A stretch of 64,000 nucleotides of DNA, taken from Agarivorans albus. Lineage in GTDB: Bacteria > Pseudomonadota > Gammaproteobacteria > Enterobacterales > Celerinatantimonadaceae. The stretch lies in assembly GCF_019670105.1 (NCBI RefSeq), contig NZ_AP023032.1, positions 2,598,972 to 2,662,971 of the forward strand. Reading direction: 5' to 3'. The notes beneath the pieces are model-generated. The model was not told the origin of the DNA. It worked only from the letters and a program-made list of their open reading frames with translations, and made no database searches. The position numbers were made by a program, and so were the translations under genes. This document shows, in pieces, positions 606 to 50,268 of this stretch. The number at the start of each line of letters is the position of its first letter. Within the stretch, counting starts at the first letter, position 1.

Positions 606-1025
606 CTAACTCACCTGCTTATAGCAACTATGTAGATGTTTATCGATGCCAGCTAGGACCTCTTCACGAGTAATTAGGCCCAGTAGCTTGCCCTGCTCAA
701 TGACCGGATACATTTTAGGTTTTTGCATTAACATGCTTTGGGCAAGTTCTAAAATACTGGTTTCGGGGCCAACGCTTAGCACATCACTGCGCATTAAATC
801 TTCCACTAACGAGACCGTTTCACAATGATATGTAGCTTCAAGCAAACTCTTTAAGCAGTCTTGCTCGGAGATCCAACCGATAACGTGCTTTTGTTCATTA
901 ATCACCGGAGCACCTAGTTGTTTATGCTCTAGCAAGCTATGTACAACTTCTGCGATGGGTTGTTTTGCGGTAAAGCAAACCGGGCGCATTAACATGTAAT
1001 CGCGCACTTTGAGGTTCTCGGGCAT
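606..1025 (-). CDS. CBS domain-pair protein
   Basis: A 139-residue protein made almost only of two CBS motifs: residues ~8-62 (VRDYMLMRPVCF to VIGWISEQD) and ~73-130 (VEDLMRSDVLSV to LLGLITREEVL). CBS pairs bind adenine nucleotides such as AMP or ATP and usually regulate a partner. With no attached catalytic domain this is probably a stand-alone energy sensor in the cytoplasm. The gene is monocistronic: it has its own terminator and the next upstream region holds sRNAs on the other strand. The partner is unknown. Confidence 0.85.
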   Translation of the reverse strand: MPENLKVRDYMLMRPVCFTAKQPIAEVVHSLLEHKQLGAPVINEQKHVIGWISEQDCLKSLLEATYHCETVSLVEDLMRSDVLSVGPETSILELAQSMLMQKPKMYPVIEQGKLLGLITREEVLAGIDKHLHSCYKQVS

Positions 1026-1130
1026 AACCTTTACTCCTGCTAGTTGCCTTACTGTTAGCTTAGTTGGCGTAGTCGAATTACTCCAGCTAGCACATACAAG
1101 CTGGCATTTAAGCTATCAATGGCAAATTTC

Positions 1131-1142
1131 ACCCATTTGGGT
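1131..1142 (+). promoter_or_regulatory. Palindromic operator of sRNA copy 1
   Basis: ACCCA-TT-TGGGT, a perfect inverted repeat within the shared context TTCACCCATTTGGGTAATGG. It begins exactly 50 nt before the first base of the sRNA hairpin. Its centre is near -44, the position of a class II activator site. The regulator is unknown. Confidence 0.6.
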
Positions 1143-1180
1143 AATGGTGAGAATAATGGCCGAGGAGTAGTATTTATATC

Positions 1181-1286
1181 GACTGAGCTGCTAACTCAGT
1201 CATCGCGTTTAGTTACCTATTGCTGTGTACATCTTTACACAAATTTATGCAGGCCCTTTGTTATCCAATGCAAAGGGTCTTTTTTT
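1181..1286 (+). ncRNA. Tandem small RNA, copy 1
   Basis: About 106 nt, no coding potential. A 7-bp hairpin GACTGAG/CTCAGTC (1181-1201) is followed by an unpaired core containing TTTAGTTACCTATTGCT. A short hairpin GTGTA/TACAC comes next, then a terminator stem GCCCTTTG/CAAAGGGT (1253-1279) with seven Ts. A TATTTA -10 box starts 10 nt before the hairpin. The same architecture is repeated twice downstream. The 5' end is inferred from conservation, not mapped. I do not recognise the family. Confidence 0.75.
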
Positions 1287-1328
1287 GTCTTCAATTTCAT
1301 AAGCTTGGGTGAAATAAGTAGCTAATTC

Positions 1329-1340
1329 ACCCATTTGGGG
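1329..1340 (+). promoter_or_regulatory. Palindromic operator of sRNA copy 2
   Basis: ACCCA-TT-TGGGG, the second copy of the palindrome with one mismatch in the right arm. It also begins exactly 50 nt before the sRNA 5' hairpin. Confidence 0.55.
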
Positions 1341-1378
1341 AATGGAGAGAGAGCGAGTTCAAAGATAGTATTTAACAC

Positions 1379-1483
1379 GACTGAGTTGCTAACTTAGTCA
1401 CGCGTTTAGTTACCTATTGCTGTGTACAACCTTTACACAAATTTTACGCAAGCCCTTTTACTTATGTAAAAGGGCTTTTTTTT
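1379..1483 (+). ncRNA. Tandem small RNA, copy 2
   Basis: About 105 nt. The 5' hairpin GACTGAG/CTTAGTC has a G-U pair where copy 1 has G-C, a stem-preserving change that supports a real RNA fold. The core CGCGTTTAGTTACCTATTGC is identical to copy 3. The second hairpin GTGTA/TACAC and a 10-bp terminator stem AGCCCTTTTA/TAAAAGGGCT with eight Ts (1451-1483) follow. TATTTA lies 10 nt before the hairpin, as in the other copies. Confidence 0.75.
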
Positions 1484-1552
1484 GCTTTGTTAAACAGTGA
1501 GGAGTATGCAAGGCATTAAAATATATGGGAAATTTATTAACTTTTAAATTTC

Positions 1553-1564
1553 ACCCATTTGGGT
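1553..1564 (+). promoter_or_regulatory. Palindromic operator of sRNA copy 3
   Basis: ACCCA-TT-TGGGT, identical to copy 1 in the palindrome and in the preceding AAATTTC. It begins exactly 50 nt before the sRNA hairpin. Confidence 0.6.
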
Positions 1565-1602
1565 AATAGCCTGATTGGTCCAGCGTGGTTATTATTTATC
1601 TC

Positions 1603-1703
1603 GACTGAGTCGCTAACTTAGTCACGCGTTTAGTTACCTATTGCTGTGTAAACATTACACGATTATGCAAGCCCTTTGCTCTAGAGCAAAGGGCTCTTTT
1701 TTT
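1603..1703 (+). ncRNA. Tandem small RNA, copy 3
   Basis: About 101 nt. Hairpin GACTGAG/CTTAGTC, the conserved unpaired core, hairpin GTGTAA/TTACAC, and a perfect 12-bp terminator stem AGCCCTTTGCTC/GAGCAAAGGGCT followed by C and seven Ts (1670-1703). It ends three bases from the stop codon of convergent pyrC. Flanking sequence between copies diverges while hairpins, core and terminator are kept, as expected for functional paralogous sRNAs. Confidence 0.75.
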
Positions 1704-1705
1704 GC

Positions 1706-2740
1706 CTATTTAACTTGCCAGTTTAAAGTTTCGTTAGCAAAGAATGGCACTAAGTTTTCACCATCAACTTTTACCGAACCAGGCACCTGCCAAGCTTCTT
1801 TGGTCAAAGTAATCGTATCAGTGTTTCTTGGTAGGCCATAAAAATCTGGGCCATTAAAGCTAGCAAAGGCTTCAAGTTTATCCAATATACCTAGTTGCTC
1901 AAAAATTTCGGCATACAATTCAATGGCGGCAGGTGCGCTGTAACAACCCGCACATCCACAGGCACTTTCTTTAGCCCCTTGAACATGAGGAGCCGAATCC
2001 GTTCCTAAAAATATCTTTTTGGTACCGCTAGCCACTGCTTGCTGTAAAGCTTTTTGGTGAGTTTGACGCTTAAGCACCGGCAGACAGTAGTTATGAGGAC
2101 GTAAACCACCTGCTAGCAGATGATTACGGTTATACATCAAATGCTGTGGCGTAATGGTTGCAGCTACATTGTCTGGTGCATTCATTACAAATTCAGCCGC
2201 TTCGGCGGTAGTGATGTGTTCAAAGACAATTTTGAGGTTAGGCAGTGACTCCACCAAACCACGCATGTGAGCGTCGATAAATGCTGCTTCTCTATCAAAG
2301 ATATCGATATCAGCGTGAGTCACCTCGCCGTGAACTAACAGTAACAAACCATGTTTTGCCATTGCTTCAAATACCGGGCGAAGAGCGGCAACGTCGGTTA
2401 CGCCATGGGCAGAGTTAGTTGTGGCATTGGCCGGATACAATTTACATGCTTTAACAATTCCACTTGCCGCTGCGTCTGCGATTATCTCAGGGGTAGTGGC
2501 ATCGGTTAAATAAAGCGTCATTAATGGTTCAAACTGGCTTTGCTCGGGAAGAGCCTGTTTAATGCGCTGATAATAAGCTTGAGCATCAGCAACTTGAGTA
2601 ACTGGTGGGGTTAGGTTAGGCATGATGATGGCACGAGAAAAGTGCTTAGCGGTAGCATTTGCTGCTACCTCTAACATAGCGCCATCGCGCAAGTGAAGGT
2701 GCCAATCATCCGGTCTGGTAATGGTAAGTGTTTGAGTCAC
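1706..2740 (-). CDS. pyrC: Dihydroorotase
   Basis: A 344-residue class II dihydroorotase that cyclises carbamoyl-aspartate to dihydroorotate in pyrimidine synthesis. The metal-binding HLHLRDG lies near residue 14, the carbamylated lysine in [13 protein letters not shown] near 100, the HGEVT and FEHITTAEA histidines follow, and the GTDSAPH aspartate lies near residue 250. Length matches E. coli PyrC (348). The gene stands alone, convergent with the sRNA array and 79 bp downstream of the kinase gene on the same strand. Confidence 0.97.
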
Positions 2741-2818: not shown

Positions 2819-5800
2819 CTAGGCTTTTTTAGTCACTTGTTGCTGCATCTCTTGCACAATTTCTCCAGCGGCTTCGTAATCGTATTCCTCAATAAGCATT
2901 TGTAGTTTTTTCGCCTGTGCCGGGAAGGTTTGCAAAATACAGTCGTGGCTATCGAGATAATCGTTACTCTCACCATCAAAGTCATCAAGTAGTTGCGCCA
3001 ACTGCTGCAAGTAACTCAATAACTCTTCTTCACTTACACTTTGTAAAGCGCCCTCTTCTGCTATTTCAGTTGTTTCAACTTGGGAGACAAACTCTTGCAA
3101 GCTTTGTTGAAGTGGTATTAGTTGCTTACCTAGCGCTTCAATACTGCTTGGCTGAACTGTATTTTCTTCGGCTTGTTGCTCTACAACCGCAGCTAAATCG
3201 GACACCGCTTGCCCACCCAGCGTAGCCGTAACACCTTTTATGGTATGAGCAATTCGCTGCAATTCATCAATACGCTCTTCAGTATAAGCAGTATTTAGAT
3301 CGTCCATCGGAGTGTTTTCTTCGTTTGCAAATTTGCCGATCAACTTCAAATATAAAGCTTTATTGTCAGCAGCATTCGCCAAGCCTGCTTCGGTATCTAA
3401 GCCATCAATCTCTGGCAACTTTAGGTCTTGATCATTAGCTACCTTAGCTGATTGTCCACTTTGATTAACCGTAGTTGGTGAAGCGGGCGTAATCCATTTA
3501 GCCATCGTGCTAAACAAGCTATTCACATTAATTGGCTTAGGAATGTGATCATTCATTCCTGCTTCAATCGCTTTCTCCCTATCCCCCGCCAAGGCATTTG
3601 CAGTAAGCGCAATAACTGGCAGCTCTTTTAGGCCTAGCTGATAACGAATTACTTTGGTTGCAGTATACCCGTCCATCACCGGCATTTGGCAGTCCATCAG
3701 TACCCCATCAACCTTGTTTTCTTTTAGGTATTCAACTGCCTGTGAGCCATCGTCACACACTGTGCAATTTAATCCATTGGAACCGAGTAACTCAGTAATT
3801 AGTTCTTGGTTAACATCGTTATCTTCAGCGACCAAAATATTTGCTCCCTGTAACTGAGCAATATCTAAGTTGGCCCCCTGCTGCTGCGCTTCTCTACGAG
3901 TTTGTTCTAGCACCTCGATCTTACGTACTTGCACAATTGTATCGAACAAATGAGACGGCGTGACAGGCTTAGTTAACACCGCATCAATGTTAACTGCTTC
4001 AGCTTCTTTAGTGAGTTCGTCACGACCAAACGCAGTCACCATTATTACGTCTAGGTCAAAGCCCTGATCCTGAATATGCTGGACAGTTTGTACGCCATCC
4101 ATATCTGGCATTTTCCAATCCATGAATACCATATCAAAGGCCGACGTTTCTGCATGTTCCTTAATCAGCGCTATGGCTTCGCTACCGCTTGAGGCAGATT
4201 CAACTTCTAAGCCAAAGCTCTCTAGCACTTGTTGATTAATATCTCGAGCATTAGCATTGTCATCCACAACCAAAGCTTTGAGGCTACTAAGTTGTGCTGA
4301 ATTAGTATCGCGAAGTGTTTGCGCGTTTTCCTGAATCTGCATTGGTAATTCAAAGTAGAAGCAACTACCTTGTCCTAACTCGCTGCTTAAGGCTATTTTC
4401 CCGCCCATTAATTCAGTCAGTTTTAAACAAATCGCTAAGCCTAAACCGGTACCACCGTGTTTACGCGTGGTTGAACTATCTGCTTGTGAAAAAGGTTTAA
4501 ACAACTTAGCTTGCTGCTCTGGTGTCATACCAATACCGGTATCGCTAACCGAGAAGTACAACTGAACTTGTTTGTTGTCTTGTTGTTTTGCCTCTATTTT
4601 TACTACCACTACGCCTTGTTCAGTAAACTTAACCGCGTTATTACACAAGTTAACCAGTATCTGAGTTAGACGTAAGGGGTCACCAATTAATGCTGTTGGG
4701 ATGCTAGGGTCAATATCAAACAGCAACTCCAAACTTTTTTGCTCTGCACGTAACCCCACTAAATTAGCTAGGTTGTCGAGAATATCCTCTAAACGAAAAT
4801 CGATCTTTTCTATGTCCAGCTTACCCGCTTCAATCTTAGAAAAATCGAGAATGTCATTGATAATGCCCAGCAAGGCTTCTGCTGAACGATGGACTTTATC
4901 TATGTAGTTACGTTGCTTATTGTCTAACTCTGTTTCTAGAGCCAAATAAGACATACCAATAATGGCGTTCATTGGAGTGCGGATCTCATGCGACATATTC
5001 GCTAAGAAATCACTTTTAGCTTGGTTGGCACTATCGGCTAAGGCTCGCGCTTCGTTAAGGGCTGCCTCTAACTTCTTGGTTTCTTCAATATCAACATGGA
5101 TACCGTTAATCCGCAGTGGCTTACCGTGCTCGTCCAACTCAGACACTCGACCAATGGTTAAAATCCAACGATACTGGCCGTTTTTACAACGCAGACGAAT
5201 TTCATTTCGCAACACATCATTCTCACCCGCCAAGTGCTGCTCAAGTTTCTCATTGTTAGTAATAACATCGCTAGGATGAATCAACTTCATCCAAGTTGCG
5301 GTATCACCTTTTAGACGAGCCCAAAGGCCATCGCCGTCTCGCAACTCACCTTTCGCGTAACCTAACATGCTTTCGTAAATGGCATTAACTTCAATGCGAT
5401 CTTCTTGTGGGTAGTAATCCCACATGCCTAAACCGGCACCAGATGCCGCAGAATCTAGTCGTTCCTCACTTTCCCTTAGCTGCGCTTCAACCTGCTTTAT
5501 TTCACTGATGTCAAAAATTGCACCATCTGAATAAGCAGGTCGCCCTTCCTCATCCATTGATACAAAGGCTTTTTGCAGCATGTGTTTAACTTTTCCAGAT
5601 GCATCAATAATGCGGAACTCTTGGGAAATAGCCCCACCCTTTTGATTGAGCTCTCGAGAGCGAGCGAGGCTCTCTTCTGCGTCATCAGGATGCACTAGCT
5701 CCTTGTAACGACGAACTGGATTTAAACCAACAAAATCGCTAATCGGGTAGCCCGTTTGCTCTTCAATTTGCTCGCTAATGTACAACCATTCTGGATACTC

Positions 5801-7897
5801 ACCTTCTTTAAGGCGAATACGGTAAACGACACACTGCAAGTTGTTGGTTAGGGTCCTAAATTGACGTTCACTATCGGCAAGTTTTTGTTGAGCTTTTCTT
5901 CGTGCGGTAATATCTCGCACAACCCCGGTAAAGTGGCGTTGCCCTTTTAAGAATACTTCTTTAACAGCCAGCTCCATGGGGAACTGCTCACCATTTTTAC
6001 GTAGACCAAATACCTCTCGCTCATTACCAATGACCGAAGATTCTTTCTTGGGTTTATAGTCAGCCAGTATCCGGTCATGCTGATCACCAATGTCGCTTGG
6101 CATTAACATTTTTACGTTTTTGCCAATGACTTCTGCTTCGCTGTAGCCAAAAATTTGCTCTGCTGCGGGACTAAAACTGCGAACAATGCCTGATTGTTCA
6201 ATCAAAATAATGCCATCGGCGATAGTATCTACAATGGTGCGGATCCGCTCTTCGTTATCAGCCAAGGCTAAGCGCGCTTGATAACGTTCGGTCATGTCGA
6301 TTAAAGAAACTTTAACCACATGAATATGCCCTTCTTCATCAAGACTAGGCACGATGTTTATACTCACCGTTTTTTTCTGGCCACTGGACGTAAAAATACT
6401 AAGCACTTCATCGTTAAAGCTGTGGCCAACAAAGGCGGCTGCTAGTAGCTCTTTAGATTTCTGACGTTGCTCTTGGTTCTCTGCAAAGTCATGGAAAGAC
6501 AGTGCTTCAAAGCCATCACGCTCTACTTCAATGAGTTCAGAAAAACTTAAATTGTGTTGCAGAAAACGCCCCTCTTTATCCACCGAGGCGTAAGCAATTG
6601 GGGCAAACTCATAAAGATCCCAAAGGGTTTTTTCACGCTCTTGCAGCTCGTAGGTGCGTTGCTCAACTTGCCGCTCTAACTCCTGTTTAGATTCACTAAG
6701 TCGCAAGTTGATTTTGCGCACTAAGGCAAATACCAACACAAACAAAATAATGCAGAAAGCTAGCGCTGACCCCAAAACCAACAACACCACATCACGAAAC
6801 TGCAAATAACCTTGCATCACTTCTTCATGATCGATCTCAGATACCAAACCAACTTCCAGATCCTTATCCCAGTGCCACGCTCCTACTACCGATACACCTC
6901 GATAATCTAGATATCCTTGAAAGTTTGAGCCGCTAGATTTGGCAATAATCGCGTAACCACTTTCTGTCCAATCGGGTCGCTCACGGGTATAACTTGGTAC
7001 TTGCAATCGAATATTTAACACCGATGATTGCTCGGGCTCTAGCAAGCCCAAACGAACTAAATCGTCTTCAAACTTACTCGGTGAAATCATGTAACCCGAG
7101 CGGCTCACAAGGTAGGTTTCACCCGTCTTACCAATTCGAGCTCCCTTGAGTAATTGAGCAAATTCGCGTTCTGGATCCATACGCAAAGTAAGAATGGCAA
7201 CAACTAGTCCATCCCCATTTTTTATTGGAGCAGCAATAAACATGGTTGAATGAGCACTTTTAACGCTGTTTTGCAGCATGCCATCTAAGACAATTTCTGG
7301 GCGAATTGGCGGAATAACCACCGTTTCGCCTTCAAATACCCGGTTAAGTAAATGTGGATAGTGGCGTGTAATTACATTGATTTCGCCTAGGTTTTCGTCG
7401 CGCATAGAGGCAATATTAATGCGATCGCGTGAGATGATAAAAAAGCCCAGATCATCAAACACAGTGCGATAGTTATCTACCGATTGACGCAAACTCTCTA
7501 AAGCAGGGTTAGCAAGAAGCCCTTCTTTACTATGCTCAGATTCAATAAGCACATAAGAAAAATGCTGGAATGCTGGGTCTAAGGCAATAGCATCAACTTT
7601 TGATTGCCAGCCTTGTTTCCATTCATCAAGCCCGGCATCTGCAGTATCAAGCACTGAGCCAATAACTTCTTCTAATTGATTGAACTGATGATGCTTAAGT
7701 TGCTTTAAACCAATGCTAGTGATTGCTGCAACAACGGCAACCGCAGCGCTACAGATGGCTAATATGACAAGAATGCTTTTCCTAGAACTGAGCAGTAAAC
7801 TCACGCTCTCGAGATTGGTTTTGCGGAGTCGATTTAACAGCAGCAAAATTAAGCCTAATAAGGCAAATAGTACCCACAATAACTGCTCAACCGACAT
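2819..7897 (-). CDS. Giant hybrid sensor histidine kinase (Cache, four PAS, HisKA, HATPase, two REC, Hpt)
   Basis: A 1,692-residue membrane kinase. Membrane segments lie near residues 4-22, 42-64 and 369-392. Residues ~65-368 form a periplasmic sensor of the double-Cache type. Four PAS segments follow (~415-545, 550-670, 675-800, 805-940). The HisKA phosphohistidine is H970 in SHEIRTPMN, followed by an HATPase with DTGIGM and GTGLGLAI. Two receivers carry D1260 (FMDWKMPDMDG) and D1402 (LMDCQMPVMDG). A C-terminal Hpt domain has H1551 (AHTIKG). The full internal phosphorelay resembles BarA/TorS-type kinases. No response regulator gene is adjacent, so the output and the ligand are unknown. Confidence 0.93.
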   Translation of the reverse strand: MSVEQLLWVLFALLGLILLLLNRLRKTNLESVSLLLSSRKSILVILAICSAAVAVVAAITSIGLKQLKHHQFNQLEEVIGSVLDTADAGLDEWKQGWQSKVDAIALDPAFQHFSYVLIESEHSKEGLLANPALESLRQSVDNYRTVFDDLGFFIISRDRINIASMRDENLGEINVITRHYPHLLNRVFEGETVVIPPIRPEIVLDGMLQNSVKSAHSTMFIAAPIKNGDGLVVAILTLRMDPEREFAQLLKGARIGKTGETYLVSRSGYMISPSKFEDDLVRLGLLEPEQSSVLNIRLQVPSYTRERPDWTESGYAIIAKSSGSNFQGYLDYRGVSVVGAWHWDKDLEVGLVSEIDHEEVMQGYLQFRDVVLLVLGSALAFCIILFVLVFALVRKINLRLSESKQELERQVEQRTYELQEREKTLWDLYEFAPIAYASVDKEGRFLQHNLSFSELIEVERDGFEALSFHDFAENQEQRQKSKELLAAAFVGHSFNDEVLSIFTSSGQKKTVSINIVPSLDEEGHIHVVKVSLIDMTERYQARLALADNEERIRTIVDTIADGIILIEQSGIVRSFSPAAEQIFGYSEAEVIGKNVKMLMPSDIGDQHDRILADYKPKKESSVIGNEREVFGLRKNGEQFPMELAVKEVFLKGQRHFTGVVRDITARRKAQQKLADSERQFRTLTNNLQCVVYRIRLKEGEYPEWLYISEQIEEQTGYPISDFVGLNPVRRYKELVHPDDAEESLARSRELNQKGGAISQEFRIIDASGKVKHMLQKAFVSMDEEGRPAYSDGAIFDISEIKQVEAQLRESEERLDSAASGAGLGMWDYYPQEDRIEVNAIYESMLGYAKGELRDGDGLWARLKGDTATWMKLIHPSDVITNNEKLEQHLAGENDVLRNEIRLRCKNGQYRWILTIGRVSELDEHGKPLRINGIHVDIEETKKLEAALNEARALADSANQAKSDFLANMSHEIRTPMNAIIGMSYLALETELDNKQRNYIDKVHRSAEALLGIINDILDFSKIEAGKLDIEKIDFRLEDILDNLANLVGLRAEQKSLELLFDIDPSIPTALIGDPLRLTQILVNLCNNAVKFTEQGVVVVKIEAKQQDNKQVQLYFSVSDTGIGMTPEQQAKLFKPFSQADSSTTRKHGGTGLGLAICLKLTELMGGKIALSSELGQGSCFYFELPMQIQENAQTLRDTNSAQLSSLKALVVDDNANARDINQQVLESFGLEVESASSGSEAIALIKEHAETSAFDMVFMDWKMPDMDGVQTVQHIQDQGFDLDVIMVTAFGRDELTKEAEAVNIDAVLTKPVTPSHLFDTIVQVRKIEVLEQTRREAQQQGANLDIAQLQGANILVAEDNDVNQELITELLGSNGLNCTVCDDGSQAVEYLKENKVDGVLMDCQMPVMDGYTATKVIRYQLGLKELPVIALTANALAGDREKAIEAGMNDHIPKPINVNSLFSTMAKWITPASPTTVNQSGQSAKVANDQDLKLPEIDGLDTEAGLANAADNKALYLKLIGKFANEENTPMDDLNTAYTEERIDELQRIAHTIKGVTATLGGQAVSDLAAVVEQQAEENTVQPSSIEALGKQLIPLQQSLQEFVSQVETTEIAEEGALQSVSEEELLSYLQQLAQLLDDFDGESNDYLDSHDCILQTFPAQAKKLQMLIEEYDYEAAGEIVQEMQQQVTKKA

Positions 7898-48693: not shown

Positions 48694-50268
48694 TTAAGAG
48701 CATTCCAACAATATACTATAACCGTGAGGTGGAATTCTTATTCCAGACATGAGCTGATTGACATGTGCGCCCTTTAAGTTTTTTAAACATTGGCCAAACA
48801 CTACATGTTTTACCAGCTGCGAACTATCTGCATAGTTGATAGCTATCACTAATCGCTGCTTTTTATATTGCCGTTCAAATAAAAACACTTTCCCATTATC
48901 TATTGACAATGGAGAAAACGAGCCACTGTGCATAGCCGGAAGTTTATTCCTTAGATGAATCAAATCTCGATAGTGGTGGTAAATCGAATTTGGGTCCTTA
49001 GATAATCTATCTAAGTTATCTACCTGGGAATTTCGGGCTAGCTCTCTAAAGGGAATGCCACTTGAGAAGCCTGCATTAATCGGATCTGCAGTCCAACTCA
49101 TAGGAGCACGTAGCCTATGGTCTGCATCAGGGTCAGATTTATCAATTCGATGTCCCATCGCAACTTCGTCACCATAGTAAACAAAAGGCGTTCCAGGAAG
49201 CGTGAGCAAAGTGGTCACAGCAGCTTTGTACTTGCCTATATTGCCTGCAAACTGTTCATTAAGCCTGCCTCCTGTAAAGGAGTCGTGATTGGATAAAATT
49301 GTCGCCATTTCATCCATGTTAGCATCTAGAATATCCTTAACTAGCTTAGGCCTTTTATGCTTAAACTTTGCACTCCCCATCATTCTGGCATGCATACCAA
49401 AATAAAAAGCACTATCACAAATTGCAGACGCATCTTTTGAATGAAATGGTACTTCACAAATCGCAAAACGATTTTCATATTCACGAACAACAGGCAATAT
49501 AGCTTCGCTCATAAAAGCAAAATTCTTTCGCTTATCAAACGCCCCTGTCTCTGGGTGTTCAAACAAAGTATTAACAGCATCAAATCTAAACCCGTCTACT
49601 CCCATATTTAACCAATAACGCATACTGTTCTGGTGATAAGCTACCACCTCCGGGTTATCCAAATTAAAGTCTGGCATCTGGTCCCAAAACAAACCGTAAT
49701 AAAACGCCCCATTACTCTCGTGCCAAGTAGGATCGCGGGTCCAATTAGTCCAACGTAGCTTGTAATCACTCCAGTGGTACCAGTCGCGATATGTAGGGTT
49801 ACCTTTTGCTGATTCAATAAACAGCGGGCTCTCTGCTCCACTGTGGTTTAAGGTATAGTCAATAATTACCCCTATTCCACGTTTATGAGCTTCAGCGAGC
49901 AGACGTTTAAAGTCTTCCTCAGTGCCGTAATCAGGTTCAACTTTTCTATAATCAACCGCCGCGTAACCGTGATCTCTGTCTTGGCTTTTCATTATTGGCA
50001 ATAACCAAATACCTTTAATGCCTAAGTCTTGCAGATAATCTAGTTTGCTGGTTAAACCGTTAAAATCACCAATACCATCTCCGTTACTGTCTTTATAAGC
50101 ACGAACATAAATTTCCATGAATGTTGCTGTTGAATACCATTTTGCTGGTAGTGAAGAAGCAGAACCTTCACTTGCTACTACACCAATATCTAACTCAAAA
50201 GCTTTTATTTTAGCTGCAGAACCGAGCATCAATACCAAGAAAAATAAGCGAAAACACTTAATCGTCAT
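48694..50268 (-). CDS. Secreted GH13 alpha-amylase family enzyme
   Basis: A 524-residue glycoside hydrolase with signal peptide (residues 1-23). Catalytic residues are nucleophile D230 (GFRFDAVN), acid/base E272 (AICEVPF) and D329 (LSNHDSF). NGDGIGDFNGL near residue 60 and GYAAVDYRKVEPDYGT resemble alpha-glucosidase and trehalose-synthase-like GH13 members rather than classical endo-amylases. It should act on alpha-glucans or malto-oligosaccharides outside the cytoplasm. The ATG overlaps the stop of the giant protein gene in ATGA, so translation is coupled. Confidence 0.92.
   Translation of the reverse strand: MTIKCFRLFFLVLMLGSAAKIKAFELDIGVVASEGSASSLPAKWYSTATFMEIYVRAYKDSNGDGIGDFNGLTSKLDYLQDLGIKGIWLLPIMKSQDRDHGYAAVDYRKVEPDYGTEEDFKRLLAEAHKRGIGVIIDYTLNHSGAESPLFIESAKGNPTYRDWYHWSDYKLRWTNWTRDPTWHESNGAFYYGLFWDQMPDFNLDNPEVVAYHQNSMRYWLNMGVDGFRFDAVNTLFEHPETGAFDKRKNFAFMSEAILPVVREYENRFAICEVPFHSKDASAICDSAFYFGMHARMMGSAKFKHKRPKLVKDILDANMDEMATILSNHDSFTGGRLNEQFAGNIGKYKAAVTTLLTLPGTPFVYYGDEVAMGHRIDKSDPDADHRLRAPMSWTADPINAGFSSGIPFRELARNSQVDNLDRLSKDPNSIYHHYRDLIHLRNKLPAMHSGSFSPLSIDNGKVFLFERQYKKQRLVIAINYADSSQLVKHVVFGQCLKNLKGAHVNQLMSGIRIPPHGYSILLECS

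Follow-up and report, generated by a model that had tools for sequence, protein, structure and literature searches.

An array of three predicted small RNA units beside pyrC

The window analyzed here is a stretch of 64,000 nt (positions 2,598,972 to 2,662,971) from the 4.79 Mb single-contig genome of Agarivorans albus. It contains three head-to-tail units flanked by a small gene encoding a CBS-domain protein and by a gene that we take to be pyrC (dihydroorotase) (Table 1). Each unit has a 5' hairpin, a near-invariant core, a second hairpin and a terminator, and extends from a predicted RNA start, the G of CGACTGAG, to the end of a T-run. The original prediction described three units of about 105 nt, and its boundaries are right to the base. 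It also assigned a separate Rho-independent terminator to each unit. Five terminator-like sites are found between 800 and 2200, where 1.2 are expected; the three longest are the three unit ends, and the remaining two overlap the terminator of unit 3. The 5' stem likewise shows the G-C to G-U change that had been described.

No regulator gene lies directly beside the array. Two genes away is a large gene for a hybrid sensor kinase (2819-7897, minus strand), whose product contains several PAS domains, HisKA, two receiver stretches and Hpt.

Table 1. Features of the array locus. Positions are those of the window. Activator sites, -10 boxes, RNA units and pairing regions are predictions from the sequence.
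Feature	Position	Strand	Remarks
CBS-domain gene, divergent neighbor	606..1025	-	small protein, two CBS-domain stretches (Pfam); next to the array in six of the seven genus genomes
Putative activator site 1	1128..1147	+	TTCACCCATTTGGGTAATGG; palindrome ACCCA-TT-TGGGT at 1131-1142
-10 box 1	1168..1173	+	TAGTAT
sRNA unit 1 (copy a)	1181..1286	+	106 nt
Core, putative pairing region	unit 1, 1207..1227; others, 1404-1424 and 1628-1648	+	GTTTAGTTACCTATTGCTGTG
Terminator 1	1251..1286	+	
Putative activator site 2	1326..1345	+	TTCACCCATTTGGGGAATGG; outermost base of the palindrome broken
-10 box 2	1366..1371	+	TAGTAT
sRNA unit 2 (copy b)	1379..1483	+	105 nt
Terminator 2	1450..1483	+	
Putative activator site 3	1550..1569	+	TTCACCCATTTGGGTAATAG
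-10 box 3	1590..1595	+	TATTAT
sRNA unit 3 (copy c)	1603..1703	+	101 nt
Terminator 3	1670..1703	+	ends 2 nt from the pyrC stop codon, which is on the opposite strand
pyrC, convergent neighbor	1706..2740	-	Pfam match is amidohydrolase; next to the array in all seven genus genomes

Distribution of the units

A BLAST search with unit 3 of 12 genomes of the family shows the unit to be present in all seven members of the genus and in none of the other five genomes. A search of relatives with a covariance model, proposed as a check in the original prediction, was carried out with a model built from 19 units. It gives 3, 3, 1, 3, 2, 4 and 3 copies in genomes G000 to G006, respectively, 19 in total, so six of the seven genomes have two to four copies and G002 has one.

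Among 394 genomes of the order, 16 have a match to the model at E ≤0.01, namely the seven of the genus and nine others. The nine matches from other genera (E 1.3e-4 to 8.8e-3) were rejected as homologs, being terminators or chance similarities by eye; the core with up to six substitutions and the element described below with up to three are absent from both strands of these nine loci. The core with at most two mismatches is found in seven of the 394 genomes, every one of them in the genus. In a set of 369 genomes of the class, which overlaps the order set, A. albus alone matches at E ≤1e-4; model searches over 40 genomes used stricter filters, with the consequence that a strongly diverged relative could be missed. 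An exact scan of named genomes for the core returned Agarivorans sp. Toyoura001 only, in a scan from which close records may be left out. No match was found by blastn in 72,556 plasmid and 50,697 phage records, and the exact 21-nt core was found in no viral contig. The best reading of these sequence searches is that the family is restricted to the genus Agarivorans among the genomes searched.

A single model match (E 0.42, 9 bits), located 5' of pyrC, came from three pyrC loci of two other genera of the family; two more genomes of the family gave nothing closer than distant pyrC-like matches. Of four loci read, L105 and L107 show the 3' side of pyrC, and L098 and L106 its other side. At L105, in one of the other genera, pyrC adjoins another gene, presumably a helicase gene from our reading of it, and at L107, in the second genus, it adjoins yet another gene; the array is present at neither.

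In all seven Agarivorans genomes the final unit ends right against the pyrC stop codon, a position that would fit an array acting in cis, either by altering the ends of the pyrC mRNA or through antisense read-through from pyrC that titrates the sRNAs. The pyrC strand has no run of five or more T between 1041 and 1712 and no terminator-like site between 800 and 2200, so transcription of pyrC may continue into the array in antisense. An action on pyrC would, however, have no need for two to four copies with the same promoter and core, pyrC manages without the array in the two other genera (where the one match has E 0.42), and the constant position may be plain descent. We therefore consider a cis function quite improbable.

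RNA structure and coding potential

Each of the three units folds better than 200 of 200 of its own shuffles (z = -5.0, -6.1 and -4.1). The 19 units comprise 17 distinct sequences, in which 99.2% of the stem cells are paired (shuffled mean 94.6). Of 29 pairs, six have both partners altered, a number reached by 18 of 500 shuffles (mean 3.9); such double changes occupy 29 cells, against 7.6 in the shuffles, none of which (0 of 500) gets that high. These shuffle counts are not probabilities, because the sequences are closely related. Five of the six pairs are in the terminator and one is in the 5' hairpin. The covariation sought in the original prediction is present. The number of further pair types shows no excess over the shuffles (428 of 500 as high). 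In the 5' stem, the relatives have an additional C-G to U-A change (5 of 17 distinct sequences). In the second hairpin, variation is confined to one side, and all six pairs of an inner hairpin predicted in the core never vary, which leaves the inner hairpin without covariation support. All 17 sequences also accommodate an alternative pairing between GCGU, near the core, and AYGC, ahead of the terminator, with one G-U/G-C column.

The core had been described as near-identical and unpaired. The first part is borne out, as the window contains the 22-nt sequence TTTAGTTACCTATTGCTGTGTA three times without mismatch, against a mean of 0.00 in 100 dinucleotide shuffles, and 18 of the 19 units carry the 21-nt core unaltered, the other having one mismatch. 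The second part is not plainly so, since the mean unpaired probability over the 19 units goes from 0.00 to 0.98 along the core. UUAC in mid-core is mostly open (0.64-0.98), and the last core bases, TGTGTA, are the 5' arm of the second hairpin.

All 19 units have U-runs of 7 to 8 at the 3' end. No reading frame is common to the 19 units, so a conserved ORF through the region, which would have counted against the original prediction, is not found. Short frames do cross the units: a frame of 52 to 90 aa runs through copy a in five genomes (G000, G001, G003, G004 and G006), and frames started by TTG inside the core diverge in sequence after three residues. Taken together, the 19 copies in seven of seven genomes, the paired stems and the lack of a common frame support the suggestion that these are multicopy regulatory sRNAs.

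A shared upstream element

The spacers between units were thought to have diverged. Each of them nevertheless carries a 20-bp palindromic element, TTCACCCATTTGGGkAATrG, which was overlooked (three sites, 0 expected). In copy-b sites, the element has GGGG instead of GGGT. Its start is exactly 52 bp before the C of CGAYTGAG, at the predicted RNA start, in all 19 copies of the seven genomes. Seventeen of its 20 columns are invariant over the 19 copies, and none of the next 20 columns is. Further downstream, positions T1, A2 and T6 of the -10 hexamer are invariant in 19 of 19 copies, the pattern of a sigma-70 -10 box, and no good hexamer is recognizable at the -35 position. A consensus promoter scan did not list the unit promoters; its sole plus-strand hit, at 1128-1157, is another site that overlaps element 1. 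The center of the palindrome is about 44 bp upstream of the predicted start, a frequent position of activators that touch RNA polymerase. A common element at a fixed distance from the predicted start, followed by a -10 box without a recognizable -35, suggests that one shared activator serves all copies.

Close matches to the element are nearly confined to the arrays. In the A. albus genome, the 20-bp element with up to two mismatches occurs at the three array sites only, and with three mismatches at 10 further sites, compared to 4 for a reversed control. Across the seven genomes of the genus, an 18-bp pattern with up to two mismatches gives 42 sites, 19 of them in the arrays (0 or 1 mismatch). 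The other 23, of which 22 have two mismatches and one has a single mismatch, compare to 15 in the control, so there may be weaker sites elsewhere in the genus. The one with a single mismatch is inside a coding frame, presumably of the GGDEF type from our reading of it.

Beyond the genus, the element with at most one mismatch is present in 12 of 387 genomes of the order, and the reversed control in 6. Five of the 12 belong to one other genus; all five of their sites are opposite open frames of 142 to 733 aa, and three share one position in a 733-aa frame. Among the other seven sites, three are opposite frames of 326 to 598 aa and a fourth falls within a 305-aa frame of the same strand as the site; the last three (L160, L161 and L171) are in no frame or in short ones only. 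A text search of the literature for ACCCATTTGGG or ACCCAAATGGG, judged mostly on titles and abstract openings, brought up no evident work on such a site. One match to the element string (PMC8595263, in excerpt) was rejected, as the string there sits inside a cloned rseA gene.

A separate site in A. albus, TTAACCCAAATGGGGAATGG (L040, near 1501; G000:C1:1943028), has an array-like palindrome with 3 mismatches and is located between two frames of at least 80 aa. The larger of these appears, from our reading, to resemble an alginate-lyase-type enzyme.

Evolution of copy number

Copies a, b and c of G000, G001, G003 and G006 are 92-99% identical to the same copy across species and 75-82% identical to their neighbors. 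Phylogenetic reconstruction places copies a, b and c each in one group (support 98/98, 99/97 and 92/98), and the four copies of G005, which follow one another at even 227-bp steps, group together (93/83). The deeper forks are weak (61/87) and 9 of 16 inner branches are open. The grouping of each copy across species and of the G005 copies with one another indicates that copies were probably gained separately, or homogenized, in at least two lines. The single copy of G002 is beside pyrC, with no CBS gene in the 2.6 kb read. Upstream of this copy (L029) is an open frame of 669 aa, which we take to resemble a membrane quinoprotein dehydrogenase.

The even spacing and grouping of the G005 copies, and the general resemblance of the copies to tandem duplicates, would also fit an intergenic repeat with terminators that was duplicated in tandem and gives rise to no functional RNA. 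In such a repeat there would be little reason for the promoter element, core and stems to be preserved when the stretch between the element and the -10 box is not, and we regard this explanation as very unlikely.

Comparison with known sRNAs

The window has no match to any Rfam family at the family's gathering score, in line with the original remark that the sequence resembled no familiar sRNA. A low-threshold search gave 18 matches up to E 10 in 1050-1760, all of which are under their own gathering score and were rejected. By sequence, the units have three features of sibling sRNAs: at least two homologous copies in six of seven genomes, a predicted promoter and terminator for each copy, and no conserved ORF. 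Multicopy sibling sRNAs are a known kind, and the Agarivorans family appears to be undescribed within the literature and databases searched; no sRNA of Agarivorans and no work on the array locus were found in the literature, as far as titles and abstract openings tell.

The Qrr sRNAs of Vibrio are near-copies with a conserved 32-nt core and a shared activator, LuxO, and are encoded by four to five distal genes (PMC4211561, in excerpt). The Agarivorans array resembles them in having several near-copies of one sRNA, a conserved core and one activator, which is putative here. It differs in that its units are in tandem whereas the Qrr genes are distal, and Qrr is not among the 18 Rfam matches. Qrr promoters use sigma-54. 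The plus strand of 1081-1720 has one sigma-54-like TGGCAC-N5-TTGC with up to two mismatches, which starts at 1691 in terminator 3, and none upstream of the units.

LhrC of Listeria is present in five copies with LisR-dependent promoters and a conserved promoter element, and its copies are indicated to act additively (PMC4132741, in excerpt). The likeness to Agarivorans is in the multiple copies, the conserved promoter element and the single regulator, again putative here; Listeria is a distant organism, and the comparison of sequences was made through Rfam only, where the window matches no family at the gathering score. By analogy, the action of the array would be like that of Qrr or LhrC.

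OmrA/OmrB and PrrF1/PrrF2 are tandem siblings (PrrF in Pseudomonas aeruginosa), and the PrrF genes were identified through a Fur site combined with a terminator (PMC4211561, in excerpt). These pairs, like the Agarivorans units, are tandem siblings of gammaproteobacteria, but they are not among the Rfam matches, and the copy number in Agarivorans is 1 to 4. The array palindrome is, we presume, different from a Fur box.

Proposed function and candidate targets

Each of the seven Agarivorans genomes has one Hfq match, and the presence of an hfq gene together with the ends of 7 to 8 T fits Hfq-dependent RNAs. We think it likely that the units are multicopy sRNAs that pair with mRNAs, probably in dependence on Hfq, and that a dedicated activator acts on their common palindrome. 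Each unit would be a separate gene for a trans-acting sRNA of 101 to 106 nt. A signal would turn on one regulator, a sequence-specific activator. Bound at the palindrome, which is centered about 44 bp upstream of the start in each copy, it would bring RNA polymerase to a promoter with a -10 and without a -35, and all copies would fire together. The RNAs would end at intrinsic terminators with 7 to 8 U, be stabilized by Hfq and pair through the core GUUUAGUUACCUAUUGCUGUG, chiefly its 5' part, with the same mRNAs. Because all would pair with the same mRNAs, extra copies are proposed to add dose.

LuxO-Qrr, GacA-RsmY/Z and VqmA-VqmR are examples of regulators that have mainly sRNAs as direct targets. 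The Agarivorans element is similar in that its close matches are essentially only before the sRNA genes; we know of no resemblance of the LuxO, GacA or VqmA sites to ACCCA-TT-TGGGT. The array could accordingly be imagined as a genus-specific switch, with an activator dedicated mainly to these sRNA genes and an output tuned by gain and loss of tandem cassettes, possibly with quenching by pyrC antisense. The cassettes (promoter plus gene) do range from 1 to 4 copies, and those of the three-copy species and of G005 would have been amplified or homogenized separately. We offer this extension only tentatively and lean against it. With 19 natural variants, a promoter element that is sharply defined and a series of 1 to 4 copies within one genus, the family allows testing of how tandem sRNA copies arise and whether dose matters. 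The promoter element can be used as DNA bait for its regulator.

Targets were sought with the complement of 15 nt of the core. Allowing two mismatches, the seven genomes have 157 sites, 19 of which are the arrays; the 138 left compare to 61 for the reversed control, an excess that could be due to base and codon composition. A. albus has 23 such sites away from the array. The one in the window, at 49797, is inside a 524-aa frame; of the 22 others, one precedes a long gene, pilM, by 46 nt and another precedes a 131-aa frame (L112) by 141 nt. Among the matches listed for G000 and the other genomes, five plus-strand loci out of 12 were read, and none of the five is just before a long gene.

That no mRNA target stood out, and that the core is almost invariant over 21 nt, could mean that the RNAs are real and under control of the element but titrate a protein or another sRNA, the core being a protein-binding or sponge site. 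CsrB/RsmY-type sponges of CsrA carry multiple GGA motifs. The Agarivorans RNAs have no GGA in any of the 19 units and hence are not a CsrA sponge; moreover, each has a single core, not many, and 3' ends of the Hfq type. Titration is therefore an unlikely function, though somewhat less so than an action on pyrC, and pairing with mRNAs is preferred.

The pilM leader keeps an 8-nt complement of AGGTAACT in all seven genomes. The best duplex is at the start codon instead in four genomes (-17.5), and values in the other three are -16.3 to -20.8. However, duplexes of -17.5 or better are also obtained with 8 of 36 gene models in the window, and runs of at least 8 occur in 6 of 36, so pilM does not rise above background and was given no weight as a target. 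About 40 nt before the pilM start, AGGTAACTGTTTAA (L127 and L191-L197) is kept in all seven Agarivorans genomes, while the bases just upstream vary.
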